Positions 38,595-51,141 of a stretch of 56,262 nucleotides of DNA are shown piece by piece. This DNA is from Phycisphaerae bacterium. Lineage in GTDB: Bacteria; Planctomycetota; Phycisphaerae; Sedimentisphaerales; Anaerobacaceae. The DNA lies in assembly GCA_012744475.1 (NCBI GenBank), contig JAAYBV010000030.1:1-56262 (forward strand). Reading direction: 5' to 3'. Numbering within the stretch: position 1 is the first letter of the stretch; each line of letters opens with the position of its first letter. Made by a program: the position numbers and the translations under genes. The notes under the pieces were generated by a model. The model had not been told where the DNA came from. It ran no database searches and was given only the letters and a program-made list of their open reading frames with translations.

Positions 38595-38636
38595 GTAGAT
38601 TTTTCTGTTGCAATCTACTATTAGCCATAGTACGAT
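38595..38636 (+). promoter_or_regulatory. promoter and BlaI-type operator of the first blaI-blaR1 module
   Basis: TTGCAA (38608-38613) and TACGAT (38631-38636) are 17 bases apart. Within that spacer lies the dyad TACTAT-N5-ATAGTA (38616-38632), and a second overlapping dyad GTAGATT-N10-AATCTAC spans 38595-38618. The half-sites resemble the TACTA/TAGTA and TGTA-type half-sites bound by BlaI/MecI repressors, consistent with autorepression. Confidence 0.6.
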
Positions 38637-38684: not shown

Positions 38685-39077
38685 ATGAGCAGGCATGCAC
38701 TCGACGACCTGGGGCAGTTGCAGCGGGCGGTCATGGAGATTATCTGGTCGCGAGGCGAGGCCACCGTCCACCAGGTCCGCGATCGGCTGGATCGCGAGAA
38801 GGAACTGGCCTACACGACGATCCTGACCACGCTCCAGAAGCTGGAAAGGGCCGGCTGGCTCGAGCACCGTTCTGAAGGCAAGAGCTACGTTTATGTGCCG
38901 AGACGCAGCCGCGAGCAGGCAGGCGCCGGATCGGTCCGGGGCTTCCTCAAACGCGTCTTCGACGGCAACGCCGTCGCCATGTTCCAGCACCTGATCCGCG
39001 AGGGGGATCTGAGCGAAGAGGAACTGAAGGAGCTGCGCAGGATCATCGACGAGAAGAGAAAGGAGATGAGAGGATGA
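38685..39077 (+). CDS. BlaI/MecI/CopY-family transcriptional repressor, first copy
   Basis: A 130-residue winged-helix repressor. Its DNA-binding domain (LDDLGQLQRAVMEIIWSRGE, ATVHQVRDRLDREKELAYTT, ILTTLQKLERAGWLEHRSEG) has the BlaI signature W.....TV..V...L.....AYTT..T.L..L...G. The C-terminal half is the dimerisation helix region that is cut by the partner protease in the MecI/BlaI system. AAAAGGAGG precedes the ATG by 8 bases. Its TGA overlaps the ATG of the M56 gene by 4 bases (ATGA), so they are translationally coupled. The operator in its promoter suggests it represses its own operon. Confidence 0.95.
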   Translation: MSRHALDDLGQLQRAVMEIIWSRGEATVHQVRDRLDREKELAYTTILTTLQKLERAGWLEHRSEGKSYVYVPRRSREQAGAGSVRGFLKRVFDGNAVAMFQHLIREGDLSEEELKELRRIIDEKRKEMRG

Positions 39078-41365
39078 GCGGGCAGATCATTCCTGGAGAT
39101 TGCCTCGGGGCACTGCTGTTGGCGCAGGGTACAACCTGCATCGCGGCAGGTCTGGCGGTCAGCTATCTGCTGAGACGCCATCCGGCCAGGGCGCACCAGA
39201 TTCTGTTGCTCGCTCTCGCGGCGTCGCTCCTGATGCCGGCGTCTTACCTTCTGGTTCGGCACTTCGAACTGGGCGTGCTGGCACTTCCTTCGTCGGCGCC
39301 CATAGAGGTGGATCTGCCCGTGATAGCCGGGACATCTGTCGTCGCTTCGCCGGTTGAGGAGTTCGACAGCGATTCAGCGGAGATCGCATTCGCCGACACG
39401 CCTCTGCTTGTTCCGGTCACGCAGGCCGAGGATTCTCCCCTGCCCTGGACATCGATTGTGCTGGCCCTTTGGGCAACCGCTTCGGTGATTCTGGCGGGCC
39501 GCGTGCTGCTCCAATTCGTGCTGGGGCTGGGGCTGGTGCGCGCCGGCGAGCCGCTGGAGACGGAGTGCGTGCAGAAAGCTCTGGAAATCGCCAAGGCCAG
39601 AATCGGCATCCGAGGGCCGGTCGTGATCCGGAGCAGTCCAAAGATACACAGCCCCGTCATCTGGTGCTGGAGCCACGTGCCCGTGCTGCTGGTGCAGGAG
39701 GCTGATGAGGCGACATCGAACGATTGCGACTGGGCCGGCGTGTTCTGCCACGAGCTGGCGCATCTGAAGCGGCGCGACCATCTCAGCGGGCTGTTCGCGG
39801 AGCTGCTGGCCGCCGCGATTCCGTGGCACCCACTGCCCTGGTGGGCCCGCGAGCGACTATCGCAACTGAGCGAAGAAGCCTGCGACGACTGGGTCCTGGC
39901 CGGCGGTCGGTCCGGCGTGGACTATGCGGAATCCCTGTTGAGTCTTTCACCGCAGAGACGAGTGTCGTTTCTGCCCACGGTTGTAGGCAAGGAGAGAACC
40001 ATGAAAGCGAGAATCTACCGAATCGTGAGGGATCAGTGCAGCGACCCGAGAATCGGCCGGCGATGGGCGTTCGGCCTGTGCGCTCTCGTTGTCCTGGCCA
40101 TTGCCGCAGTGGCGTTGGCCCAGCCTCAGCCGGAGCCGGCGCAGGCGTCTGAGCCTGTTGTCGAACCAGAGACGGTCCAGCCGGCGCCTCCGCAGGAGCC
40201 GGCCGTTGCGGGCCGACGCAACGTCCTGCAACGGATGCTGGACCAGTTGGTCGCCCAGGCCGAAGAGACAGAGGCGGCCTTGCGCCGGCGTGGCGACGAG
40301 CCGGGCGAAGAGACCGAAGTCCTGCGTTCGGAGCTTCGCACCTTGCGCGACCAGATCAGCCGTATCGAGCGACTGCTTCGCGACCTCGAACAGAGCCATC
40401 GCCTGGCCCCGCCGCAGCGACCGACACTTGAAATAACGCAGCCGCGACAGCCGGAGGATGCTCTCCGCGCTCTTCAAAGCCGACGGGAACGGATTCAAAG
40501 CCGGTTGGATGAAATCCGCGATCCCGACAGCGAAGAGGCCCGTGAGCTTCGTGAGCAGTTGGCGAGATTGGACGTCCAGATCCGACAAGCCGAAGCTCGT
40601 GTGAGAGCTGCGAGAGCACGGCGAGAGGCAACCAGTCGCGCACCACAGCGTGAAGGCCGCTCCCGTGAACCCGACGACCGCGTACGTAACCTCCGGAATC
40701 GCCTGCTGGAACTGGAGGAGCAAAACGCCGAAAAGAGACGATCGTTGCAGCAGTCCGACGATCCTGATAGCGAAGAGAGCCGTGACCGCCGCGCGGCCCT
40801 GGAACAGTCCGAGCGAGAAAGGGCCGACGTTCGAGAGGAACTCGATCGCCTCGATCCCGACCTGAAGGCCTGGGAACTGGAGCGTGACCTTCGCGTGAAC
40901 GAAGAGTTCCTCAGCACAATCGCCCGACGCATCGCCCTCCACGAGCCCGAGCTTTTTGATCTGGAGCAGCAAGGCCGCAGCGACACCGCTGAAGCCACCG
41001 AGCTTCGCCAGAACCTGGCTCGTCTGCATTCGCAGGCGCGGGCCCTCGAAGCACGGATCGAAGCACAGAGGCGCGACCTCAGTCACCTGCGCACCGAGCG
41101 GGATCCGGATACGCGCCGCACCGAACAACGCGCGACGTCTCCATACGGGATTGGCCCCTACGGAGACGCCTACGCTCGCGCCACGACACGCGCTCGCATC
41201 GCCAGTCCGCAGGCATCGCCTGACGTGCAGAGGCAGGTCGAAGAGCTGCGGGGGCAGGTGAACGGCCTGAACGATCAGATGAAGGAGATGCGCGAGATGC
41301 TCCGGCAACTGCTCGAACGCCGCAGCGAAGCCGACGACAAGCCGCAGGAGATGAAGCGGTATTGA
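39074..41365 (+). CDS. BlaR1-type M56 membrane metallopeptidase with long coiled-coil C-terminus
   Basis: A 763-residue sensor-protease. N-terminal hydrophobic helices occur at about 15-32, 40-58 and 124-150, then the zinc site CHELAHLKRRDH (HELAH 226-230) and the SEEACDDWVLAGG motif (266-278), as in M56 peptidases. A fourth helix at about 332-349 (WAFGLCALVVLAIAAVALAQ) leads to an outside region that is not a penicillin-binding sensor. It is instead a Pro/Glu linker and about 370 residues of Arg/Glu/Leu-rich coiled coil with internal repeats (the phrase DSEEAREL or DSEESRDR recurs after DPD). BlaR1 itself is about 600 residues and binds beta-lactams; this version must sense something else. 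It is coupled to the BlaI gene by an ATGA overlap. Confidence 0.92.
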   Translation: MSGQIIPGDCLGALLLAQGTTCIAAGLAVSYLLRRHPARAHQILLLALAASLLMPASYLLVRHFELGVLALPSSAPIEVDLPVIAGTSVVASPVEEFDSDSAEIAFADTPLLVPVTQAEDSPLPWTSIVLALWATASVILAGRVLLQFVLGLGLVRAGEPLETECVQKALEIAKARIGIRGPVVIRSSPKIHSPVIWCWSHVPVLLVQEADEATSNDCDWAGVFCHELAHLKRRDHLSGLFAELLAAAIPWHPLPWWARERLSQLSEEACDDWVLAGGRSGVDYAESLLSLSPQRRVSFLPTVVGKERTMKARIYRIVRDQCSDPRIGRRWAFGLCALVVLAIAAVALAQPQPEPAQASEPVVEPETVQPAPPQEPAVAGRRNVLQRMLDQLVAQAEETEAALRRRGDEPGEETEVLRSELRTLRDQISRIERLLRDLEQSHRLAPPQRPTLEITQPRQPEDALRALQSRRERIQSRLDEIRDPDSEEARELREQLARLDVQIRQAEARVRAARARREATSRAPQREGRSREPDDRVRNLRNRLLELEEQNAEKRRSLQQSDDPDSEESRDRRAALEQSERERADVREELDRLDPDLKAWELERDLRVNEEFLSTIARRIALHEPELFDLEQQGRSDTAEATELRQNLARLHSQARALEARIEAQRRDLSHLRTERDPDTRRTEQRATSPYGIGPYGDAYARATTRARIASPQASPDVQRQVEELRGQVNGLNDQMKEMREMLRQLLERRSEADDKPQEMKRY

Positions 41366-41464
41366 CGTGCGACACGGCCGGCGTCGCCGAACCATCCAAG
41401 GCCCTTGCGATCGACTCGGTCGCGAGGGCCTTTCTCATTGGGGGATGCAACATTTTTCTCTATC

Positions 41465-41507
41465 TACGAATTTTTTCGTTGATTTACTACGAATTCGTTC
41501 GTATCTT
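41465..41507 (+). promoter_or_regulatory. promoter with two BlaI-type operator dyads, second module
   Basis: TTGATT (41479-41484) and TATCTT (41502-41507), 17-base spacer. The dyad TACGAA-N4-TTCGTA (41488-41503) fills the spacer, and a second copy, TACGAA-N4-TTCGTT (41465-41480), lies just upstream, 23 bases away. The half-site differs from the TACTAT half-site of the first module. Confidence 0.6.
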
Positions 41508-41556
41508 TGCCGATAGACAGTTCAGGATGGAAGAGCGTACAACACAGGAGAATCTC

Positions 41557-41940
41557 ATGGCCAGACACCGAAGCGCCGGACCGACAGACCGAGAGATGGC
41601 GATCCTCAGCGTGCTGTGGGAACGCGGGCCCAGCACGGTTCGCGAGGTGCACGAAGCCCTAAACGCCGACAGCGACACGGGTTACACCACGACGCTCAAG
41701 CTGATGCAGATCATGGCCGACAAGGGCCTGCTGTCGCGCAAGGACGCCGGACGCCAGCACATCTACCGCCCGGCCGTGTCGCAGGAGAAGACGCAGAGCC
41801 AGGTCGTCGGCGAGGTGCTGGAGAAGGTCTTCGCCGGCTCGGCGGAGAAGCTGGTCATGCGGGCCCTGTCGGCGCGCAAGGTCTCGCCCGAAGAACTCAA
41901 ACGCATTCGCGAGATGCTCGATGAAATGGAGGGAACATAG
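41557..41940 (+). CDS. BlaI/MecI/CopY-family transcriptional repressor, second copy
   Basis: A 127-residue winged-helix repressor. I start at ATG 41557 (AGGAG 7 bases upstream) rather than at 41362, which lies in the previous gene's 3' end. It has the family signature (LSVLWERGPSTVREVHEALN, TGYTTTLKLMQIMADKGLLS) and a C-terminal dimerisation helix with LSARKVSPEELKRIREMLDE. The recognition helix differs from the first copy (TGYTTTLKLMQ versus LAYTTILTTLQ), in line with the different operator dyads. It is separated from the giant M56 gene by 2 bases, so the two form one unit. Confidence 0.95.
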   Translation: MARHRSAGPTDREMAILSVLWERGPSTVREVHEALNADSDTGYTTTLKLMQIMADKGLLSRKDAGRQHIYRPAVSQEKTQSQVVGEVLEKVFAGSAEKLVMRALSARKVSPEELKRIREMLDEMEGT

Positions 41941-41942
41941 TC

Positions 41943-44900
41943 ATGGCAACACTGGAAACCCTGCTGTCGCAGCAGATGATCGAGCGGCTGGGCTGGACGC
42001 TGATCCACTTCGTCTGGCAGGCGGCGGCGGTTGCGCTGCTGCTGGCGGCTGTGCTGCGAGGCCTTCGCCGGAGCAATTCGAATGTGCGGTACGTCGTTGC
42101 GTGCCTGGCGATGGTGCTGATCGTCGCGCTGCCGCTGGTGACGATGTCGCTCGTGGAGGTATCGAGGCCCGTCGCGGAGGCGGGCCCGATCCTCAATCCC
42201 CCGCTTGTGATGAGGACGACGCCCGTCGAGGTGGTGGAATTGCCTCTTGAGCCGTTCGACGCGCCGGTTCCGGAGACGCCGGAGCGGGTTGCTCACGTGC
42301 CCTGGATGCAGCGAATCGCCACCGCGCTGGAACCTGCCTTGCCCTGGCTGGTGTTGGGCTGGCTGCTGGGCGTCTTCGGGCTTTCCACCTGGCACCTGGG
42401 CGGCTGGGCCCAGTTGCAGCGGATGAAACGGCGATTGGTCAGCGAAGTCGCCGCGCCGCTGCACGCAAGAGCGGCCGAACTGGCCGGACGACTGGGCATC
42501 CGCCGCGCGATCGGATTGTGGGCTTCGCCGTTGATCGACGTGCCTGCGGTCGTCGGATGGATCAAGCCGGTGATCCTGCTGCCGGTCGGCGCCGTTTCCG
42601 GCCTGAGCGTCGAGCAGCTTGAGGCGATACTCGCGCACGAGCTGGCGCACGTCCGCCGCTGCGATTACCTCGTCAACCTCGCACAGACCGTCGTCGAGAT
42701 TCTCGGGTTCTACCATCCAGCGGTCTGGTGGATCTCGCACCGCATTCGCGATGAGCGGGAGAACTGCTGCGATGATCTGGCGGTACAGGTCTGCGGCGAT
42801 TCGCGGCGCTACGCCCGCGCCCTGACCAGCCTGGAAGAGCTGCGCCACGCGGCGCGGGCGTCCCGCCCTCGTGTCACAGAAGAAAGAGCAAGGGCAAGAT
42901 GCCCTCGCCACACAGCAGTGGCCGCCAGCGGCGGCAGTCTCGTCGGGCGGATCGCCCGCCTGCTCGGCCGCCCGCCCATCGACCACCGCCGCTTCGCCTG
43001 GCTCCCCGGCCTGATCGCCCTGCTCGTCGTCGCCGCCATCCTCATCCCCACCGCCCTCGTCCTGGCCACGCCCGACGCCCCGCCGACAGCAGACACTATC
43101 GCCAGCGAGCCGGTCTCTGACGCAGCCCCGCTGGAAGTGACGACCCAAACGCTTCACGTCGACCAGGAACAGGACCAGCCAGAGGTTCTCGTCAATCTCC
43201 TGCTCTTCACCAACCCTATGCCGAACAAAATCGTCGATCGCGAAACGAAACGACGGATCGGTGATGTCCTGGCCCCCGAGATCCCGTCCGCTCGCCAAGG
43301 GGTCGCCTCGATGCAGAACTGCACCCTGCTCCAGATCCTGCAAACCTGGGTGGTCGGCCGAACCCTGACGCGACACACCATGGAAGTCCTCGTCGACCTG
43401 CTCCAGTCCAGAGGCTATCTCCAAGGCGAAGCCACCCCCGAGATCCTCCTAACTGACAACGTACCGGGCCACATGAACCTGATCACCGAGGAGCTGATAC
43501 TCCCCGCCCAAGACCCCACGTCGCCGCCCAAACCAATCGCACTGGGCACCTTCGTACAACTAACGCCCCACGTCCCGCCTGCGACGAGCGACCGCGTCAC
43601 CCTGGAGATCGGAGTCGAGTGGAAGAGCCGCATCGAACAATCCGACCCCAACAACAATCCAACGTTCCGCTCCACGGAGATCGCCTCGACCGTCACCGTC
43701 TTGAGAGATCACTACTTCACTCTGCTCGCAGAGCCGGACGACAAAGGCAACGCCGAGACCGGGATCGGTGAATTCCACCTCGTCATGCTCCGCGCCGACC
43801 TCTTCGAACCCGACCTCTCTCACGCTACCACGGCGGCCGCCCCCGCCCCCGCAGGCCAGAGCCTGTCCCGTCAGGTCATCCTGGACATCCAGACCGTGAG
43901 CGTCGAGAAAGGCAACCTCGGCGATGGCATCGTCGAATGGAGCCGCCCGCAGACAAGTGGATGGCCTTCGGGAATCCTGATGGGCTACACCCCTGACAGG
44001 ACCTTCACCGATGCCCTCCGGACCCGTCTCGATGAGCTTTACGCGCGAGGCGTGGCACGCCGCCTCGCCCACCAACGGTTGACAACGCAGGAGGGTTACG
44101 AAGCGCGTTTCAAGGCGGTCAAGGAGGAATGGTTCTCCCTGGCTCCGGCACCCGCAGGCAATGCCGCCGACCCCGGACCAGAACACACCAGCATCGCCTC
44201 CGGCACAATCATCACCGCGACCCCGACCATCGGCGACGCCAACAGCATCACCCTCAACCTGAACATCGAATTCAGTGAGAGTCTCCCGAAAGGCGAAGGC
44301 CTCGACCTGCCGATCATCACCCGGCGTACCTCCCGAAACGTTGTCACCGTCCGGGACGGCGGCACCGTCCTCCTTGCCGGTCTGTCCTCCATGATTTCCG
44401 ACGGAGTCGAGGACGTCACCATCCTCGTCACCGCCCTGCTCATCGCGGCACCGAATCCGCCAACACTTCCGAGCCCGGAAGCGAATTCCACAGGGCAGAT
44501 GGGCAGCCGTGATGTCGAGAGGACACGATTCGTACATTGGGATATCGAAGGACAAATCGACCGCGAGTTCGGGTTTGAGCAGTTGATCCGCGAGGAAGGA
44601 GATCGGTGGACTATTGCCAAACCCCGTCTGAAGCAGTCGGCCGGGAAGATGCGCTGCCACGTCCGTGCCGATCGGGGCGAACTGCGTTTGGATGGAGCCC
44701 TGAACCAGCCCACGCCGGACGGTGGCACATTCCGTGGCAATGTGGTCATTGAGATCACTTCCAGCGAACCGGACAGCATCGATGCGTGCACACTCTATCT
44801 CGACGAGGTGACCTTCTCCGCACAGAACAAACGATTCACCAGTTCCGGACCCGTTCGCCTGGTCTGCGGCGCAACCGAACTGGCCGGCCGGGGACTGGAG

Positions 44901-47900
44901 CTGTCTTTTGACGAACCACAAGACCTGTCCGATCCGAGCCGACTCACGGTCATTGCCGGAGTCGGCGTGCGAATCGCCCCCTCCGGCTCGCTGATCGTCT
45001 CACTGGGCGACCCCCAGACAGAAGTCTCAGAGGCATCTGCATCCACGCAACGCACGCCGGTCGGCGTGCCGACCGAAACGGCTGACAGTCGCACGTCCTT
45101 GCTGGATGGAGAGCCCAGGGTCATGCTGGATATTGAGCCGAGTGCTGATGCAGCAGACCGCCAGGTCCTGCTCAGCTTCACCATCGCGGAGATCGTTACG
45201 GAAGAAGCACTGGATCGTGCCACGGCCCGACAGCTTCGTGCCCTTCTCACCGACGCATCGCGCGACGCCAAATTCAATCTACCAAGCGTGGAAGAGCTCC
45301 AGAAGCCCGTACAGTATATCGTCAGCAAATACGCGAACATCTGCAACCAAGCAGATGACGCCGCCAGAGCCTTCACCGATCTGCTGGTTTCACGGGGTTA
45401 TGCGACCGTGTGTGCCAGCCCCGAAATGTTGATCCGCCTCGGCGAAAGCGGTCACCTCAGTTGCGGCAATATTCCGGTCATGGGACCTCCAGCGCCTCCC
45501 AGCCAGACGGACAATCCTGCTCTGAGTCTGGATGTGACACCGACCGCCCCGCATGACGCCAACGGCATCCGGCTCACTCTGGCACTGCGTGCAAGAAACC
45601 TGGTGTCCCTCGACTCCAAGGGCAGGTTCTCCGCGAGGGCAGCCTACGCCAGCTTCGATCTCGCGCTATCTGCCCGGAATGACCAGTGCGTCATGCTTCC
45701 TCTGACCACGGCCGTCGCCCTTGATGCGAAGACCACAACGACTCTGTTATTGGTCAAGCCAACCCTCATCGAGCCCCCCGCTGCCCCTGCGCTCGCGCCG
45801 TCCGCCTCCGAGCAGGCAACCGCCGACGCGGCGAGCGATTTCGTCCAGACCGACCCGATGGTCCGCGAGTTGGCGAAGAAGATCGCGGAGGTCGAAATCG
45901 AATTGCTGGAAGCGCAGCAGACGTTCCTGCCGGAGCATCCCGAAATCGTCCAGAAGAAACAACTGCTGGAAGCGCTGAACACCCGCCTGGAGGAACGACG
46001 CAAGGAATTGGAGCAAAGGCCTGACGCCGGCATCAACTCGGCCAGCGCGCCGGATGATCGGACGCAGCAGCGCGCCAACGCCGAGAAGGCATTGGCCATT
46101 ATGCGTGGACAAGTGGCAAGGGTCAACGAGAGAATTGACAAGGCCAGCTCAGCCTGGTACCCGGATGAGGCGGAGCGATCACGTGAACTGGCGGACCTGA
46201 AACGATTCAAGGAGGTAGTCGAAGCCCAGCTTCAGGAAATCGCGCGGATAGTAGAAGAGCAATTCGGCCCTCCTGCTGAGCCTGAGCCTTACCAGCTCTC
46301 CGAGACCGAGCGCTTCGCCGAGCGAATGAAGCATCTGGGCTTGGCCCTTCGTCTCTACACGGAGAATCACGATGGACGGTATCCCGACGATCTGCTGCCA
46401 CTGGACCCGTATCTGAGCCTGGAAGATTCACGCTGGATCGAGACGAGCGTTATCTACCTTGGCAAAGGCAAGACCGGAAACGATGTGCCTGAGAGCCCGA
46501 TTGCCTACGACGAAATGCTGCTGAAGCAGACGGGCCAGACCCACGTCTTGTTTGCGGACGGTCAAATCCGCGTCACTCCAGAGGGTTCTTCTATGATCTG
46601 GCTCGACCACCGCAAGGCGCGAGCCTCGGAGGCATCTGCATCCAGGCAACCCACGCCGGTTCGCGTGCTGAGCGAAACGGCTGACGGTCGCGCGTCCTCG
46701 CCGGATGAGAAGCCCAGGGTTATGCTGGATATCGAGCTGGTCAAGTTCCTGACGGACCGGTCGCTGAGCCCTGAGGCAGCGACACAGTTGTCGGGCCTGT
46801 GGGACCAGATGTACGCAAAGCGAGAAACCGGACGAGAGAAGCGAGGTTCACTTCCGCGTGTGGACGGGTTGCAGATTTCGCCTCAGGCTCTGCTCGAACG
46901 CTGCACCGAGAATGCGCAAGGAGATTCGGAGGCACTGGAGATCCTGGTCGATCTGCTGGCATCGCGCGAATACTTGAAAGTCGCCATGAACCCCACGGTG
47001 GAAGTCTTCGACGGCCGGCAGGCACAAGTCATGAGCAAACAACACGTGCCGAATCCAACCGCCCAACCCGGGGCGCCAGAGACGGTCGAATGCCGCGATC
47101 TTGTGACGGTCACGCCTCGCATCGATAGCGCCGGTCATATCAACTTGGACCTTGCGGCGGAGATCTGCGACGTCACACTGAACGACAGCAAGACGCCGCG
47201 CATCAGCAAGTACGGTATCGACACCAGGGCCGTCGTGGACAAGAACAAAACGTTCGTCTGTCGCCTGGAGTCCGCTGCCGAAGGGCAAACGCAGGACAAC
47301 GCCGTTCTCTACCTCCTGGCCCGTCCGCGCATCGTCCCATCCGCGCCGGCCCGAGAGCCCGCCACCGTCACAGCCAGCTTCGTCGACACGGATCTGATCG
47401 AGGCACTCGCCGAGATATCCGAACAAACACAGGCGAAGATCGCTGTGGACCCGACGGTCAAACACGAACGCATCACCGCGCGCCTGTCCGAAACCTCCAT
47501 CGACACAGCCCTGCAAACCGTCCTGCAGGACACCGCCTCCACATTCAAGAAACTGGGCGACACCGACACCTACACCGTCTTCCGTCCACTCAGCGGAACA
47601 TTCCAGGGCACCGATCTGCGTGAAGCCCTGAGACAAGTCGCCGAACAGGCTGGAGTCAATGTCACGTGGGATGCCACCGTCGGCGGAGAGGCCTGGGCCG
47701 AGTTTGAGGATGTATCTCTGCAAACGGCCCTCAGGATGCTGCTCGCCGGCAGCCCGTACGTCACCACGAGAACACCGGACGGGTATGCCATCACGAAGCG
47801 GAATGCGCAGCCTCCCGCAGCACCAAGCCGGGAAGCAGACGCCATCGAGGTGGCGGCGCGGTTCGTGCTGGTGGATCGTGCATGTATGGAGGCGCTGCGG

Positions 47901-48605
47901 CGTGGCTTGCCGATTAAGGGCGTCACCGCGCCGGCGGACGTCAATGCGCTGCACGAGATCGGCAGCGGCCTTGCCGAAGGCCGAACGCCCGTCCTGGAGC
48001 CCGACCGGGTTGGACTGCTGCTCAAGGCGGTCCAGCAATATGCGGGAAGCAAGATGCTGGCCGCGCCGAAGGTGACCGTGCTGGACGGCGAATCCGCCAG
48101 TGTGAGCCTCAGCCGCACCATCGGCTACGTCAGCGGGTACCGCGAGCCCAATGACGCCTCGCAGGAACCGATCCCGCAGCACGCCTCGAAAGAAGTCGGC
48201 GTCCGACTCGACGCTACGCCGCACCTCATCGAAGACCAGAACAACATCCGTCTTCAGTTCGAGATGGAGATCGACTCGCTGCTCAGGATGCAGAAGGCCC
48301 TGTACAGGGGCAAGTACGAGTACGACGTTCCCACGTTCACGGCCGTCACCACGGCCACCGAGATCGTCATACCTGATGGACAGACGGCCCTGATCCACGT
48401 AGGAGAAACACCAGCGGTCGGCAACATCCTCAGCGACGAAAGCGAGCCGGCCGGCCCATTGCTGATGCTGATCACACCCAGCAAGACGCCAGCGGAGCCT
48501 CTCGACCCAGCGCCTCCGATGCAACCGGGACGCCGCCCGGGCGATTCCGGCATGGGCGGCCTGCCGCCCGGAAGGCCGCAAGTCCACCCGCCCTTGTCAT
48601 CGTGA
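41943..48605 (+). CDS. giant mosaic M56 (BlaR1-type) peptidase fused to secretin-like, STN, LptA-like and prepilin-tail-like domains
   Basis: A 2220-residue protein. The N-terminal 380 residues are an M56 protease: membrane helices about 17-40, 50-72, 132-150 and 351-375, zinc site HELAH (232-236), and RENCCDDLAVQ (272-282). A 25-residue in-frame insertion (301-325) comes from a DNA repeat. The outer part is unlike BlaR1. It has five secretin-like modules (about 414-620, 644-836, 1061-1280, 1593-1798, 1970-2180), several with TVRDGGTVLLAGL-type strands. Between them are an LptA/OstA-like beta domain (about 863-1023), a coiled coil (about 1300-1443), a prepilin-tail-like segment (1456-1550, LRLYTENHDGRYPDDLLPLD, then VLFADGQIRVTPEG), and two STN domains (1803-1953). 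The last 40 residues are Pro/Gly-rich. The stop codon lies in an 85-bp inverted-repeat element. Domain borders are by eye. Confidence 0.88.
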   Translation: MATLETLLSQQMIERLGWTLIHFVWQAAAVALLLAAVLRGLRRSNSNVRYVVACLAMVLIVALPLVTMSLVEVSRPVAEAGPILNPPLVMRTTPVEVVELPLEPFDAPVPETPERVAHVPWMQRIATALEPALPWLVLGWLLGVFGLSTWHLGGWAQLQRMKRRLVSEVAAPLHARAAELAGRLGIRRAIGLWASPLIDVPAVVGWIKPVILLPVGAVSGLSVEQLEAILAHELAHVRRCDYLVNLAQTVVEILGFYHPAVWWISHRIRDERENCCDDLAVQVCGDSRRYARALTSLEELRHAARASRPRVTEERARARCPRHTAVAASGGSLVGRIARLLGRPPIDHRRFAWLPGLIALLVVAAILIPTALVLATPDAPPTADTIASEPVSDAAPLEVTTQTLHVDQEQDQPEVLVNLLLFTNPMPNKIVDRETKRRIGDVLAPEIPSARQGVASMQNCTLLQILQTWVVGRTLTRHTMEVLVDLLQSRGYLQGEATPEILLTDNVPGHMNLITEELILPAQDPTSPPKPIALGTFVQLTPHVPPATSDRVTLEIGVEWKSRIEQSDPNNNPTFRSTEIASTVTVLRDHYFTLLAEPDDKGNAETGIGEFHLVMLRADLFEPDLSHATTAAAPAPAGQSLSRQVILDIQTVSVEKGNLGDGIVEWSRPQTSGWPSGILMGYTPDRTFTDALRTRLDELYARGVARRLAHQRLTTQEGYEARFKAVKEEWFSLAPAPAGNAADPGPEHTSIASGTIITATPTIGDANSITLNLNIEFSESLPKGEGLDLPIITRRTSRNVVTVRDGGTVLLAGLSSMISDGVEDVTILVTALLIAAPNPPTLPSPEANSTGQMGSRDVERTRFVHWDIEGQIDREFGFEQLIREEGDRWTIAKPRLKQSAGKMRCHVRADRGELRLDGALNQPTPDGGTFRGNVVIEITSSEPDSIDACTLYLDEVTFSAQNKRFTSSGPVRLVCGATELAGRGLELSFDEPQDLSDPSRLTVIAGVGVRIAPSGSLIVSLGDPQTEVSEASASTQRTPVGVPTETADSRTSLLDGEPRVMLDIEPSADAADRQVLLSFTIAEIVTEEALDRATARQLRALLTDASRDAKFNLPSVEELQKPVQYIVSKYANICNQADDAARAFTDLLVSRGYATVCASPEMLIRLGESGHLSCGNIPVMGPPAPPSQTDNPALSLDVTPTAPHDANGIRLTLALRARNLVSLDSKGRFSARAAYASFDLALSARNDQCVMLPLTTAVALDAKTTTTLLLVKPTLIEPPAAPALAPSASEQATADAASDFVQTDPMVRELAKKIAEVEIELLEAQQTFLPEHPEIVQKKQLLEALNTRLEERRKELEQRPDAGINSASAPDDRTQQRANAEKALAIMRGQVARVNERIDKASSAWYPDEAERSRELADLKRFKEVVEAQLQEIARIVEEQFGPPAEPEPYQLSETERFAERMKHLGLALRLYTENHDGRYPDDLLPLDPYLSLEDSRWIETSVIYLGKGKTGNDVPESPIAYDEMLLKQTGQTHVLFADGQIRVTPEGSSMIWLDHRKARASEASASRQPTPVRVLSETADGRASSPDEKPRVMLDIELVKFLTDRSLSPEAATQLSGLWDQMYAKRETGREKRGSLPRVDGLQISPQALLERCTENAQGDSEALEILVDLLASREYLKVAMNPTVEVFDGRQAQVMSKQHVPNPTAQPGAPETVECRDLVTVTPRIDSAGHINLDLAAEICDVTLNDSKTPRISKYGIDTRAVVDKNKTFVCRLESAAEGQTQDNAVLYLLARPRIVPSAPAREPATVTASFVDTDLIEALAEISEQTQAKIAVDPTVKHERITARLSETSIDTALQTVLQDTASTFKKLGDTDTYTVFRPLSGTFQGTDLREALRQVAEQAGVNVTWDATVGGEAWAEFEDVSLQTALRMLLAGSPYVTTRTPDGYAITKRNAQPPAAPSREADAIEVAARFVLVDRACMEALRRGLPIKGVTAPADVNALHEIGSGLAEGRTPVLEPDRVGLLLKAVQQYAGSKMLAAPKVTVLDGESASVSLSRTIGYVSGYREPNDASQEPIPQHASKEVGVRLDATPHLIEDQNNIRLQFEMEIDSLLRMQKALYRGKYEYDVPTFTAVTTATEIVIPDGQTALIHVGETPAVGNILSDESEPAGPLLMLITPSKTPAEPLDPAPPMQPGRRPGDSGMGGLPPGRPQVHPPLSS
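42853..42914. repeat. palindromic repeat element inserted in frame in the giant M56 gene
   Basis: About 62 bases with two small hairpins: GGGCG-TCC-CGCCC (42856-42868) and AGGGCA-AGA-TGCCCT (42891-42905). It adds an Arg/Ala-rich segment (residues about 301-325) between LTSLEELR and VAASGGSLVGRI, which are normally adjacent or nearly so in planctomycete M56 proteins as I recall them. The ends are approximate. Confidence 0.55.
45026..45137 (+). repeat. internal direct repeat, copy 1 (giant M56 gene)
   Basis: 112 bases encoding SEASASTQRTPVGVPTETAD and on to PRVMLDIE. It is repeated without gaps at 46625-46736; by my count about 16 bases differ. Confidence 0.8.
46625..46736 (+). repeat. internal direct repeat, copy 2 (giant M56 gene)
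   Basis: 112 bases encoding SEASASRQPTPVRVLSETAD and on to PRVMLDIE. It introduces the fourth secretin-like module just as copy 1 introduces the third. Confidence 0.8.
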
Positions 48606-48737: not shown

Positions 48738-49766
48738 CTACGCGAGCATGGTTTCCGTCAGTTCCTTGCGGTGGCGGCGGAGCCACTTGGTCTTGCGGAC
48801 GATCATGCGCAGAAAGTCGAGGCCGCTGTGGTCGCCGAAGAAGCCGGTGGCCGCCACCGGCAGGACCGCCTCGGCGACCATCGCTTCGATCATCAGGTCG
48901 ACGAGCCCGTACAGTTTGTGTTTGCTCAGCGGGACGACTTCGCGATAGCCCGCCAGGAACTGCAAGAGACGCTCCTGGTCGAATGCGTCGGGCCACTGGG
49001 CCGGATCGGGCGAGACGCCGAGGATCGAGAACTGGAGCATGCCGTTGGCCAGGTCAGTCACGGGCGGAGCGATACGGATCGAATCGAAATCCACCACGCC
49101 CACCACCTTGCGGTCGGAAAACAGCAGGTTGCCCGGATGCCAGTCGCCGTGGATGACCTGTCGCTTCCAGGAGGCATAACCCACCCGGTCGACGCGATTG
49201 CTGGAGCGGTCGTATCGGATCACCAGTGATTCGGTCACAGCGGCGGCGCGTTGGAGCGATCCGGTGCGCTTGTCCGTCCGGATCATTTGAAGATGCTGAC
49301 GCACGGTCGCCGAGTCGTGAAAGCTGCCCTGGAACGGCTCGTAGTCGTGAGCGAAGTCGCGCAGGCACACGTGCAGATGGGCCAGATGCCGACCGGCGTC
49401 CGTCGTCGCTTCGGCCGAGCCGTCACACCGCGAGCCGGTGACAAAGGCGAACAGCTCATAAATGTGATTGTCCACGTTCAGAACAGTCTTGTGCTCGTCG
49501 CTCGTGGCCACCAGGGACGTGACGGGAAAGCCCCGCGCCGCCAGATGCCTCTGCACGGCGTGAGCGAACGCCACACGGTTCATGTCGTCGCGTCCTCGGG
49601 GACGTCGTTTGAGCAGGAACGTCCCTTTGTCGGCGTGCACGATCACTTTGGGGGCCCGCCGGTTGCCCGCCGGAAGGGAGCGAACGCGGTGAACCACTCC
49701 GACGTCGTAATGGCTCAGGACGCGGACGAGTTCCTCCGACGCGAAATTGGCTCCTCCTCTGGGCAT
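48738..49766 (-). CDS. APH/CotS-type phosphotransferase
   Basis: A 342-residue protein-kinase-like phosphotransferase. The catalytic loop VIHGDWHPGNLLF (about residues 208-220, Asp212) and the metal-binding VVGVVDFDSIRIAPPVTDLA (Asp of DFD at about 231) are typical of the aminoglycoside phosphotransferase superfamily. The N-terminal lobe has a glycine-poor loop and FLLKRRPRG with the likely ATP-binding Lys. Nothing points to drug resistance; homoserine-kinase-II or CotS-like roles, or small-molecule phosphorylation, are possible. It lies 51 bases downstream of the Ser/Thr kinase in the same direction, so it is likely co-transcribed. The ribosome binding site is weak. Confidence 0.85.
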   Translation of the reverse strand: MPRGGANFASEELVRVLSHYDVGVVHRVRSLPAGNRRAPKVIVHADKGTFLLKRRPRGRDDMNRVAFAHAVQRHLAARGFPVTSLVATSDEHKTVLNVDNHIYELFAFVTGSRCDGSAEATTDAGRHLAHLHVCLRDFAHDYEPFQGSFHDSATVRQHLQMIRTDKRTGSLQRAAAVTESLVIRYDRSSNRVDRVGYASWKRQVIHGDWHPGNLLFSDRKVVGVVDFDSIRIAPPVTDLANGMLQFSILGVSPDPAQWPDAFDQERLLQFLAGYREVVPLSKHKLYGLVDLMIEAMVAEAVLPVAATGFFGDHSGLDFLRMIVRKTKWLRRHRKELTETMLA

Positions 49767-49817
49767 TGGCGCTTTTCTCGATGCAGATGGGCGAGACCGG
49801 CCGGGGCCGTCAGGACG

Positions 49818-51041
49818 TCAGAACGCGAGCATCAGGACGATGATCAGAACGGAAATCGCGGAGACCGCCCCCAGAACGAGCACGGCCAGCCGGTAGCGAT
49901 TGATCCTCTCCTCCACGTGCTCCTCATTTTCGGTTTCGACGGTTTCGCCTTCTTCGAGCTTCTCGAGCACGGAAACGTCGAAGCGTTTGTGCGCCTGGAG
50001 CGGCGCGTGGCCCTCGCGCAAGGCCTCCAGATCGACCAGCAGTTCTTCGACGTTGTTGTACCGGTCTTCGCGCCGCTTGGCCATCATGATCTCGATGACT
50101 TCTGAGATTCCGGCCGAGAGCGTCGTGTTGATGTGGTCCGGCGGGATCAGCTTCTCGCGCAGGTGCTTCTTCATGATCTCGGCGGAGTCGTCCCCGGTGA
50201 ACGGCACGCGTCCGGTAACCATGTGATAAAGGGTCGCGCCGAGACCGTAGATGTCGGCCCGGCCGTCGATGTCGATCTTGCCGCGGATCTGCTCAGGGGC
50301 GATGTAATAGGGCGTTCCGTAGGCCTTGCCCGCCTCGCTCTGCGCCGCCTCGATATCGGTGGTTTCGCGAGCCAGACCCATGTCGGCCAGCTTCACCACG
50401 CCCTGCTTGTTGATCATGATGTTCTTGGGCTTGACGTCGCGGTGCACCAGACCGTGGGAGTGGGCGTGGACCAGGGCGTGGGCCACCTGGGTGATGATCT
50501 CGATGGCTTCCTTTTCGCCGAACGGAGTGCCGTTGGTCAGGTCGTCGGCGATGGTCTTGCCCTCGACGTACTCCATGACGAAGTAGTGGTAGCCGCCCGC
50601 TTCGCCGACGTCGATGGCCTGCACGATGTTGGGATGGTTGAGCTTGCCAGCGGCCTGTCCTTCTTTATAGAACCGCTGCACGTATTCCGGGTTCTCGGTG
50701 AAACGCTTGGGCAGCACCTTGATGGCCACCGTGCGATTGAGGCTGAGCTGCTTGGCCTTGTAGACGAACGCCATAGCGCCGGCGCCGATCTTACCGAGGA
50801 TCTTGTAGCCGGGAATCTGGTGAACGGCGACCTTGTTTTCTTTGATGCTCAGCTTGAGGCGCTCGGCCTGGGTCGCGGTGATGTAGCCCAGTTCGATCAG
50901 CAGTTCCTGGAGCATGACCGGGTTGATCTTGCGGCGTTCCTGGAGTTCCTGGATCGAGTGGCGAAGCTCCTGGTCGGTACAGAGCCCCTGGTCCACCGCC
51001 ATCTTGCCAAACACCGTGTCGTAGCTCGTTTCGCTCGTCAT
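49818..51041 (-). CDS. membrane-anchored Ser/Thr protein kinase
   Basis: A 407-residue Hanks-type kinase. Start at ATG 51041, with a GGGGGA ribosome binding site 6 bases upstream. Residues 1-70 are an N-terminal helical domain (FGKMAVDQGLCTDQELRHSI) like those found ahead of many planctomycete kinases and secretion ATPases. The kinase domain follows: Gly loop IGAGAMAFVY (85-94), Lys108 in VAIKVL, catalytic HRDVKPKN (Asp202), DMG at 220-222 instead of DFG, and GTPYYIAPE. A C-terminal membrane helix (about 385-406) ends the protein, so the kinase faces the cytoplasm and no outside sensor follows. The APH-like gene is directly downstream. Confidence 0.94.
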   Translation of the reverse strand: MTSETSYDTVFGKMAVDQGLCTDQELRHSIQELQERRKINPVMLQELLIELGYITATQAERLKLSIKENKVAVHQIPGYKILGKIGAGAMAFVYKAKQLSLNRTVAIKVLPKRFTENPEYVQRFYKEGQAAGKLNHPNIVQAIDVGEAGGYHYFVMEYVEGKTIADDLTNGTPFGEKEAIEIITQVAHALVHAHSHGLVHRDVKPKNIMINKQGVVKLADMGLARETTDIEAAQSEAGKAYGTPYYIAPEQIRGKIDIDGRADIYGLGATLYHMVTGRVPFTGDDSAEIMKKHLREKLIPPDHINTTLSAGISEVIEIMMAKRREDRYNNVEELLVDLEALREGHAPLQAHKRFDVSVLEKLEEGETVETENEEHVEERINRYRLAVLVLGAVSAISVLIIVLMLAF

Positions 51042-51141
51042 TGGGAATCCCCCAGGTAGCCCAGGGGCCGTATCCATACGCCAGGAAGCCTCGTTATCGG
51101 CTCCAATGATCGCATCCGATAAACGCCACCGCCGGCGATCA

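Follow-up and report, generated by a model that had tools for sequence, protein, structure and literature searches.

In the window analysed here, the whole 56,262-nucleotide stretch of DNA from a Phycisphaerae bacterium (NCBI GenBank assembly GCA_012744475.1, contig JAAYBV010000030.1, positions 1 to 56,262), we identified a gene encoding a BlaR1-type M56 protease whose long outer part carries secretin-like modules together with other domains related to envelope machinery. The gene forms an operon with a gene for a BlaI-type repressor (BlaI2), and two tandem operators precede this operon. We read the pair, with a probability of about 0.5, as a BlaR1-class antirepressor cassette, in which the operon silences itself and the outer part of the protease is a periplasmic mosaic of soluble pieces of export machines that would dock to channels or filaments. 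The central elements of the cassette are located as follows.

41943 to 48605, plus strand: M56-ectodomain gene, a single uninterrupted frame with an ATG start and 2220 codons
41943 to 43082, plus strand: M56 protease and membrane part (residues 1-380), from Pfam, invariant residues, and hydropathy
41557 to 41940, plus strand: BlaI2 repressor, start set by a conserved MARxKS motif and a ribosome-binding site
41465 to 41480, no strand: operator O1, TACGAATTTTTTCGTT, a phylogenetic footprint before BlaI2
41488 to 41503, no strand: operator O2, TACGAATTCGTTCGTA, the sole perfect TACGAA-N4-TTCGTA in the genome

The M56-ectodomain gene starts two bases past the stop of BlaI2, at the place of a BlaI partner, as the initial annotation had stated, and Peptidase_M56 was identified at residues 22-303 (Pfam, E 6e-28). 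The residues H232-E-x-x-H236, D241, E273-xxx-D277, and Y290 showed no variation in 15/15 aligned homologs, and the distance from HEXXH to the glutamate is the same as in Staphylococcus aureus BlaR1, the numbering of which follows the published structure (PMC9834060). Hydropathy gave four membrane segments (residues 16-42, 45-78, 129-150, and 349-380), weaker hydropathic segments at 189-221, 817-836, and 1001-1021, and approximately 1840 residues beyond the last membrane segment, which ends near residue 380; as in BlaR1, these outer residues should face the periplasm. A BlaR1-type M56 zinc site is intact in this 2220-residue protein, and both the zinc site and the four membrane helices had been correctly recognized in the initial annotation. 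Its claim that the beta-lactam sensor of BlaR1 is replaced also held, with no penicillin-binding sensor found in the outer part in Pfam and NCBIfam at E up to 1; matches to the NCBIfam BlaR1/MecR1 models were confined to residues 136-288, with scores far under the cut-off. A frameshift or an assembly join merging separate genes, the doubt raised at the time, was ruled out. The frame is open, and homologous blocks recur in independent genomes of the same genus, covering residues 1-841, 1064-1566, and 1961-2210 in G005 and residues 1-387, 811-1384, 1566-1881, and 1883-2210 in G004. Together with ratios of nonsynonymous to synonymous divergence (dN/dS) well below 1, these observations confirm that the gene is real and not an artefact.

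The Pfam Secretin family (PF00263) matched the protein in four stretches (E 6e-41). An earlier seed profile includes the window modules themselves, and a non-circular repeat was made with a genuine-only profile built from 42 genuine secretin C-domain rows from the own genome and its relatives; these rows represent 37 proteins, five of them present twice and several being near-identical orthologs, and were mostly chosen as top-scoring PF00263 loci. The genuine-only profile identified four modules, at residues 448-594, 647-826, 1640-1773, and 1991-2152, with independent E-values (iE) of 2e-5 to 1e-19, and the best iE on 50 shuffled copies was 20. Of the five secretin-like modules originally proposed, the remaining one (M4, residues 1064-1272) was missed by this profile and is degenerate; it was found by the profile that contains M4 itself, by its match to the module at residues 1570-1790 (M6; E 7e-8), and by the tree. 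The five modules are listed below.

43155 to 43826, plus strand: secretin-like module M1 (residues 405-628), iE 2e-5 with the genuine-only profile, no amphipathic loop
43860 to 44468, plus strand: secretin-like module M2 (residues 640-842), iE 9e-19, resembling the own secretin G000:C25
45132 to 45758, plus strand: degenerate secretin-like module M4 (residues 1064-1272), from the seed profile, kinship to M6, and the tree
46650 to 47312, plus strand: secretin-like module M6 (residues 1570-1790), iE 2e-11 with the genuine-only profile
47829 to 48482, plus strand: secretin-like module M7 (residues 1963-2180), iE 1e-19, in a tree clade with the own secretin C118 (98/91)

An AlphaFold2 model of residues 1795-2190 (11 rows; pLDDT 85.8, predicted TM-score 0.57) placed a secretin core after two STN/N0 folds. 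The M7 region of this model (1964-2185) aligned on GspD with Z 10.3 over 129 aligned residues at a root-mean-square deviation (rmsd) of 3.5 (VIA-align). Secretins were the best Foldseek matches, with whole-chain TM-scores mostly of 0.2-0.3 and large rmsd because several domains are joined in the model, and domain-level fold matches were taken from VIA-align rather than Foldseek. The model of residues 640-1060, spanning M2 and an LptC-like stretch, reached a pLDDT of 38. In PHROGs, the sole match was the filamentous-phage pIV secretin.

Published accounts regard the amphipathic helical loop between two membrane strands as the best conserved portion of the secretin family and as required for outer-membrane association or insertion of secretins (PMC6532946, PMC6155069, PMC8134430), with an essential V and F four positions apart (PMC6532946, PMC6155069, PMC8134430, PMC10653833, PMC9239104). 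We took VPxLGDIPxxGxLF as this loop from published descriptions and not from a residue table. The loop is present in 42/42 genuine secretin rows (37 proteins; 35 rows by pattern and 7 by eye) and absent from 5/5 window modules, and across the cassette family it is gone in 46/49 modules, being kept only in G012, G235, and bin55. The pattern occurred 6 times in 9800 shuffled module ends. Within six genomes of the genus, all 18 of the PF00263 matches located in these M56 frames extend no further than profile position 132, and 66/69 other PF00263 matches reach position 162 or beyond, with two of the three exceptions sitting at the start of one contig. The loop is also carried by all ten other PF00263 matches of the window genome, of which nine fit the pattern and one was recognized by eye. 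On these comparisons, the modules appear to be clipped secretins, deficient in membrane insertion, and would probably not build a channel in the outer membrane.

A tree of 80 domains distributed the modules over at least 4 clades. One contains C25 (support 100/100) and includes M2, which also has 44% identity to L053; another contains C118 (98/91); a third groups modules of G012 and bin89 with C15/C46 (100/99); and a module-only clade (96/91) contains window M1, M4, and M6, although the top match of M6 among the own secretins is C46/C15. The starred branches of the tree force four changes. The tree has a midpoint root only and several long branches, that of C118 included, which leaves its details unsure. 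By this analysis, the modules group with at least three secretin lineages. Most simply, separate modules would stem from separate secretins found in organisms of the same kind, by a capture that probably ran from secretin to module.

The rest of the outer part was assigned to further domains.

47370 to 47588, plus strand: STN/N0-like domain 1 (residues 1810-1882), from the model, Z 11.4 to the anti-sigma factor 4m0h
47589 to 47807, plus strand: STN/N0-like domain 2 (residues 1883-1955), from the model, Z 11.3 to the FpvA signalling domain
44478 to 45032, plus strand: LptC-like stretch (residues 846-1030), from homology to a 735-residue protein of L054
45810 to 46262, plus strand: probable coiled-coil stretch (residues ~1290-1440), from weak matches to coiled-coil families
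46263 to 46622, plus strand: H-X9-DG-like (prepilin-tail-like) module (residues 1441-1560), 36% identity to L003 repeats

Two STN/N0 folds are predicted at residues 1810-1955, in line with the two STN domains first proposed; the second also gave Z 10.5 to PupR and about 9.3-10.0 to secretin N0 domains (VIA-align), and Pfam matches to STN were sub-threshold (E 0.0006-0.002). The stretch at 846-1030, annotated initially as LptA/OstA-like, has 37-45% identity to the L054 protein, which is encoded just after a kdsC-like gene; no LptA/LptC profile matched the stretch in Pfam, and the PDB profile search gave only E > 1. The LptC-like assignment draws on homology and context. The position beside kdsC is the usual place of lptC. 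At L054, the kdsC-like neighbour, the membrane anchor, and the lptC place were judged by eye, and the 735-residue protein is a candidate LptC of this group. This protein (L054:8297-10486, directly after the kdsC-like gene) had no Pfam match at E up to 0.1 and has homologs in many relatives. The coiled coil of the initial annotation was retained as probable, from the weak family matches listed above. For its pseudopilin-tail-like domain, the stretch 1441-1560 is similar to repeats in the sister M56 protein L003 (36% identity, E 3e-16), one of which scores above the cut-off for the H-X9-DG model TIGR04294. The stretch itself had no NCBIfam match and showed no similarity to the pilin-like protein of G037 (E 0.28), and the M56-ectodomain protein gave no PF07963 match to the pseudopilin N-terminal methylation helix with E values up to 1 admitted. 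L003 (L003:2226-6782) is another M56 protein of the own genome, with approximately six H-X9-DG-like repeats in its outer part.

The longest frame of BlaI2 begins at 41362 (PF03965, E 4e-30 on the 41362-41937 frame), and a BlaI gene lies upstream of the M56 gene in the loci examined. The double operator, TACGAA-N4-TTCGT(A) twice, is located in the intergenic DNA before BlaI2. In the window only, the two matches at up to 2 mismatches were non-significant, being equalled in 16/100 shuffles, and the evidence for the operators is therefore phylogenetic. Both dyads were found in 18/20 loci examined, at a spacing of 21-31 bases. The double site was identified in 28/397 genomes of the class, and no row contained the reversed control pattern. 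Twenty-seven of these 28 sites head an operon of a BlaI2 ortholog and an M56 gene, 26 directly before BlaI2 and the other in G037, where the intervening genes encode two prepilin-like proteins and one small membrane protein; in the 28th genome (G017), the contig stops 35 bases past the double site. The perfect site was present in 20/61 genomes (the own genome and 60 relatives) and heads the cassette in 15/15 genomes with an identified cassette, own included, with the perfect sites of G016, G033, G050, and G053 left outside this comparison and a second one in G037 lying inside a pilin-like gene. By eye, relatives such as G019 and G037 have a TTGAC-like hexamer in the gap separating the two dyads and a TATA-like hexamer where the second dyad ends.

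One-mismatch operator sites outside the cassette were at control level in the window genome (3 vs 3). A wider regulon was rejected on these three sites, which equal the control and all lie inside open frames (C54 in a 2254-residue frame, C58 in a PIN-like gene, and C118 in a 265-residue frame). Within the genomes searched, the double operator marks the cassette family and is nearly exclusive to the BlaI2-M56 operon. It was seen at no promoter other than that of the operon itself, a pattern suggestive of a self-contained envelope sensor or of a decoy. Of the initial annotation, the M56 antirepressor with a BlaI partner was supported, and a target regulon was not.

The M56 part has approximately 40-83% identity in most family members compared, and BlaI2 is also conserved. 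Proteins of the same genus have 2220, 1801, 1641, and 1474 residues (open-frame lengths) with differing module sets. The genuine-only profile detected at least 1 secretin module in 23/35 protein entries, some of which are frames cut by contig ends, corresponding to 21 genomes or metagenome-assembled genomes (MAGs); MAG bin71 and G384 are likely the same organism, as are L069 and G012. The same cassette also carries a SecD P1 head with a secretin (G028 and G381), PDZ and Secretin_N with a secretin (G318), and Poly_export with SLBB twice (G154; EpsE E 3e-49, under that model's own cut-off). At L214:8004-11852, the ectodomain of the cassette member consists of Poly_export and SLBB twice, domains belonging to a channel that exports polysaccharide. 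Among the best 80 of 271 loci by M56 part, three had secretin modules, all in Planctomycetota MAGs (one titled Sedimentisphaerales). The chassis is, by these alignments, conserved and the outside part swapped even within the genus. The planctomycete survey called for by the initial annotation returned secretin modules in these 21 genomes or MAGs and other ectodomains in some members, and its view was supported in that the outside part comes largely from outer-membrane and secretion machinery, with Wza/SLBB, SecD, and PDZ on the same chassis elsewhere.

Nei-Gojobori dN/dS was 0.17-0.55 over all segments compared, and the modules are therefore kept by purifying selection. Synonymous divergence (dS) to G004 was 0.02-0.17 in 7/8 60-residue bins of 961-1320 and 1621-1740, and was low (0.08-0.15) also at residues 1-120 and 2101-2160; it was 0.39-1.53 over 121-360, 1321-1380, 1801-1860, and 1981-2100, with 0.59 for EF-G, the segments having been picked after seeing the profile. 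Because divergence to G004 is so uneven, recombination between lineages, the M56 part included, is likely. Several relatives carry altered copies. In G029 (L041:2188-7865), the M56-secretin protein lies in two overlapping frames, broken inside a secretin module, by frameshift or decay. The M56 gene of G309 is split. G243 (L209:6613-7543) has three operator dyads and BlaI2 with an M56 gene remnant only, and a divergent 548-residue frame nearby. In G019, a T2SS-like (type II secretion system) pseudopilin cluster lies approximately 3.3 kb off on the other strand (by eye), and was not used as evidence.

In BlaR1, the M56 protease cuts itself and BlaI, driven by a change in its ectodomain (PMC9834060). 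In PupR/PupB and FoxR/FoxA, the periplasmic STN domain of an inner-membrane regulator binds the signalling domain of an outer-membrane protein; proteolysis is the switch in such cell-surface signalling, and induction extends to the gene of the outer-membrane receptor (PMC7186176, PMC11637429). In the light of both systems, the ectodomain of the window protein most likely docks to channel or filament parts. In the mechanism that we propose, BlaI2 would sit on both tandem operators at its own promoter and silence the BlaI2-M56 operon, and the M56 protein would span the inner membrane, exposing its zinc site to the cytosol and its large C-terminal ectodomain to the periplasm. This ectodomain would be a mosaic of loop-less secretin C-domains, STN/N0 domains, and an LptC-like part, the lost insertion loop keeping the module copies soluble, and would dock to the corresponding components of genuine channels or filaments, in the way that the PupR STN docks to its partner's signalling domain. 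A change in this contact would be the signal that releases the protease, BlaI2 would be cut, and the operon, hence the sensor, would be induced, self-induction being the output. The main surprise is that the operator was seen at no other promoter: the sensor may serve as its own effector, in the role of decoy, plug, or chaperone, or else there may be weaker sites or further M56 substrates that escape sequence analysis.

The system resembles BlaR1/MecR1-BlaI/MecI in the HEXXH/E-xxx-D spacing, the four membrane segments, and the C-terminal ectodomain (PMC9834060), as well as in the adjacent BlaI partner and the dyads before the operon. It differs in having an export-channel ectodomain, swapped between close species, in place of a penicillin-binding sensor, and in an operator seen only at its own operon. 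With the secretins GspD, PilQ, InvG, and pIV (PF00263), it shares the core C-domain and STN/N0-like domains, but the window modules are loop-less, in tandem, and anchored in the inner membrane. PupR/PupB and FoxR/FoxA likewise rely on a regulator in the inner membrane whose STN domain lies in the periplasm (PMC7186176, PMC11637429); unlike in PupR/FoxR, M56 cutting of BlaI would be expected here instead of anti-sigma proteolysis, and no receptor gene lies in the window operon. Sensing of an envelope machine is plausible, and the variants with Poly_export, SecD, and PDZ make it more so; the prepilin-like genes in the G037 cassette operon were counted in its favour.

Several observations weigh against this reading. 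The more distant BlaI-M56 pairs of G053 and G056 (M56 34-35%) are without operators, no target was found outside the operon in a genome-wide search that covered perfect and one-mismatch sites, which leaves the sensor without a visible downstream response, and a strict sigma-70 scan of the window found no promoter at the operators. The C25, C118, and C15/C46 secretins had no recognizable T2SS or pilus genes in the flanks seen (by eye), and dN/dS is mostly higher in the ectodomain than in the M56 part. Other members carry as ectodomain the Sde182 cellulose-binding domain (G384), CarboxypepD_reg (G149, weak in G309), or HEAT (G051, below cut-off), and those of G393 and G011 had no further Pfam domain; such non-export ectodomains count against a narrow envelope version. 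This heterogeneity, with the many unrelated outer parts seen by eye on other M56 proteins of the own genome, would fit randomly recruited modules of a generic ligand-binding beta type, unconnected to secretion, in a system for sensing a small molecule or polymer. We regard that explanation as possible but not probable: secretin modules occur in the 21 genomes or MAGs and group with at least three secretin lineages, export parts recur as Poly_export, SecD, STN, and PDZ too, and the genome's ten other PF00263 matches all have the loop.

The sensor may also be the effector, which we consider unlikely: on activation, channel-like modules would flood the periplasm and serve as decoy, plug, or chaperone toward agents or subunits with affinity for export channels. 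The operator is seen only at an operon that in the window makes only BlaI2 and the M56-ectodomain protein, the next window gene being on the opposite strand, and the modules are without insertion loop yet under purifying selection, with fast swapping and mosaic divergence; but no ligand or attacker is known, some members have non-channel ectodomains, and the G037 operon holds further genes. A more specific form, rather doubtful to us, is a bacterial integrated-decoy receptor, in which a self-inducing M56 protease would bear loop-deleted copies of channel domains, traded rapidly among species; agents that bind real channels would also bind these copies, trip the protease, and be soaked up as more of the receptor is made. 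Plant nucleotide-binding leucine-rich repeat (NLR) receptors with integrated decoys bear copied fragments of other proteins that are exchanged over time. The likeness is an analogy only, with no attacker known for the M56-ectodomain protein; if it is true, a phage, a toxin, or a misassembled subunit would be possible channel-binding agents. Very improbable is a role as a defective subunit that joins or caps a secretin ring: the predicted secretin fold and tandem modules would suit it, but the module number of 0 to ~6, the several lineages, and the inner-membrane anchor do not. Least credible is a chimera, frameshift, or decaying gene, for which the splits in G029 (two frames), G243 (remnant), and G309 could be cited, against the open frame, the block homology in independent genomes, and dN/dS well below 1.

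Upstream of the cassette lies a second pair of the same kind.

38685 to 39077, plus strand: BlaI1, first repressor of the tandem, PF03965 E 1e-32
39074 to 41365, plus strand: M56_1, 763 residues, with a long charged coil-like C-terminal stretch, PF05569 E 1e-21
38616 to 38632, no strand: a different dyad before BlaI1, TACTATTAGCCATAGTA, seen by eye in five loci

The coil of M56_1 was recognized by eye and from weak SMC-type matches. The TACTATTAGCCATAGTA dyad had one exact match in the genome, as did its reversed control, and use of the BlaI2 operator by BlaI1 was ruled out, since BlaI1 has a different dyad. A similar BlaI1-M56_1 pair lies beside the cassette in G005, G002, G029, and G012, and M56_1 diverges faster, with a dS of 0.88 vs 0.35 for BlaI2 (window vs G005). 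Downstream, positions 48738-51077 on the opposite strand hold an APH-type gene and a Ser/Thr protein kinase gene. Elsewhere in the own genome, L001:3150-13967 encodes an M56 protein in a 3606-residue frame, whose long outer part, by eye, looks like many different domains and finishes in a thioredoxin-like portion.

Antibiotic sensing is the main known role of BlaR1-type proteases. No M56-secretin fusion was reported in the titles and abstract starts of the open-licence literature searched, and the clipped secretin modules from at least three lineages, the double operator, and the swapped ectodomain on a conserved chassis appear to be new. Here, the BlaR1 chassis carries swappable periplasmic modules related to the organism's own export channels, minus the part that enters the outer membrane, and the operator pattern marks the cassette family in the genomes searched. 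The cassette may represent a compact case of sensor evolution by domain capture, and it offers a hypothesis for how planctomycetes may watch or guard their secretion channels.

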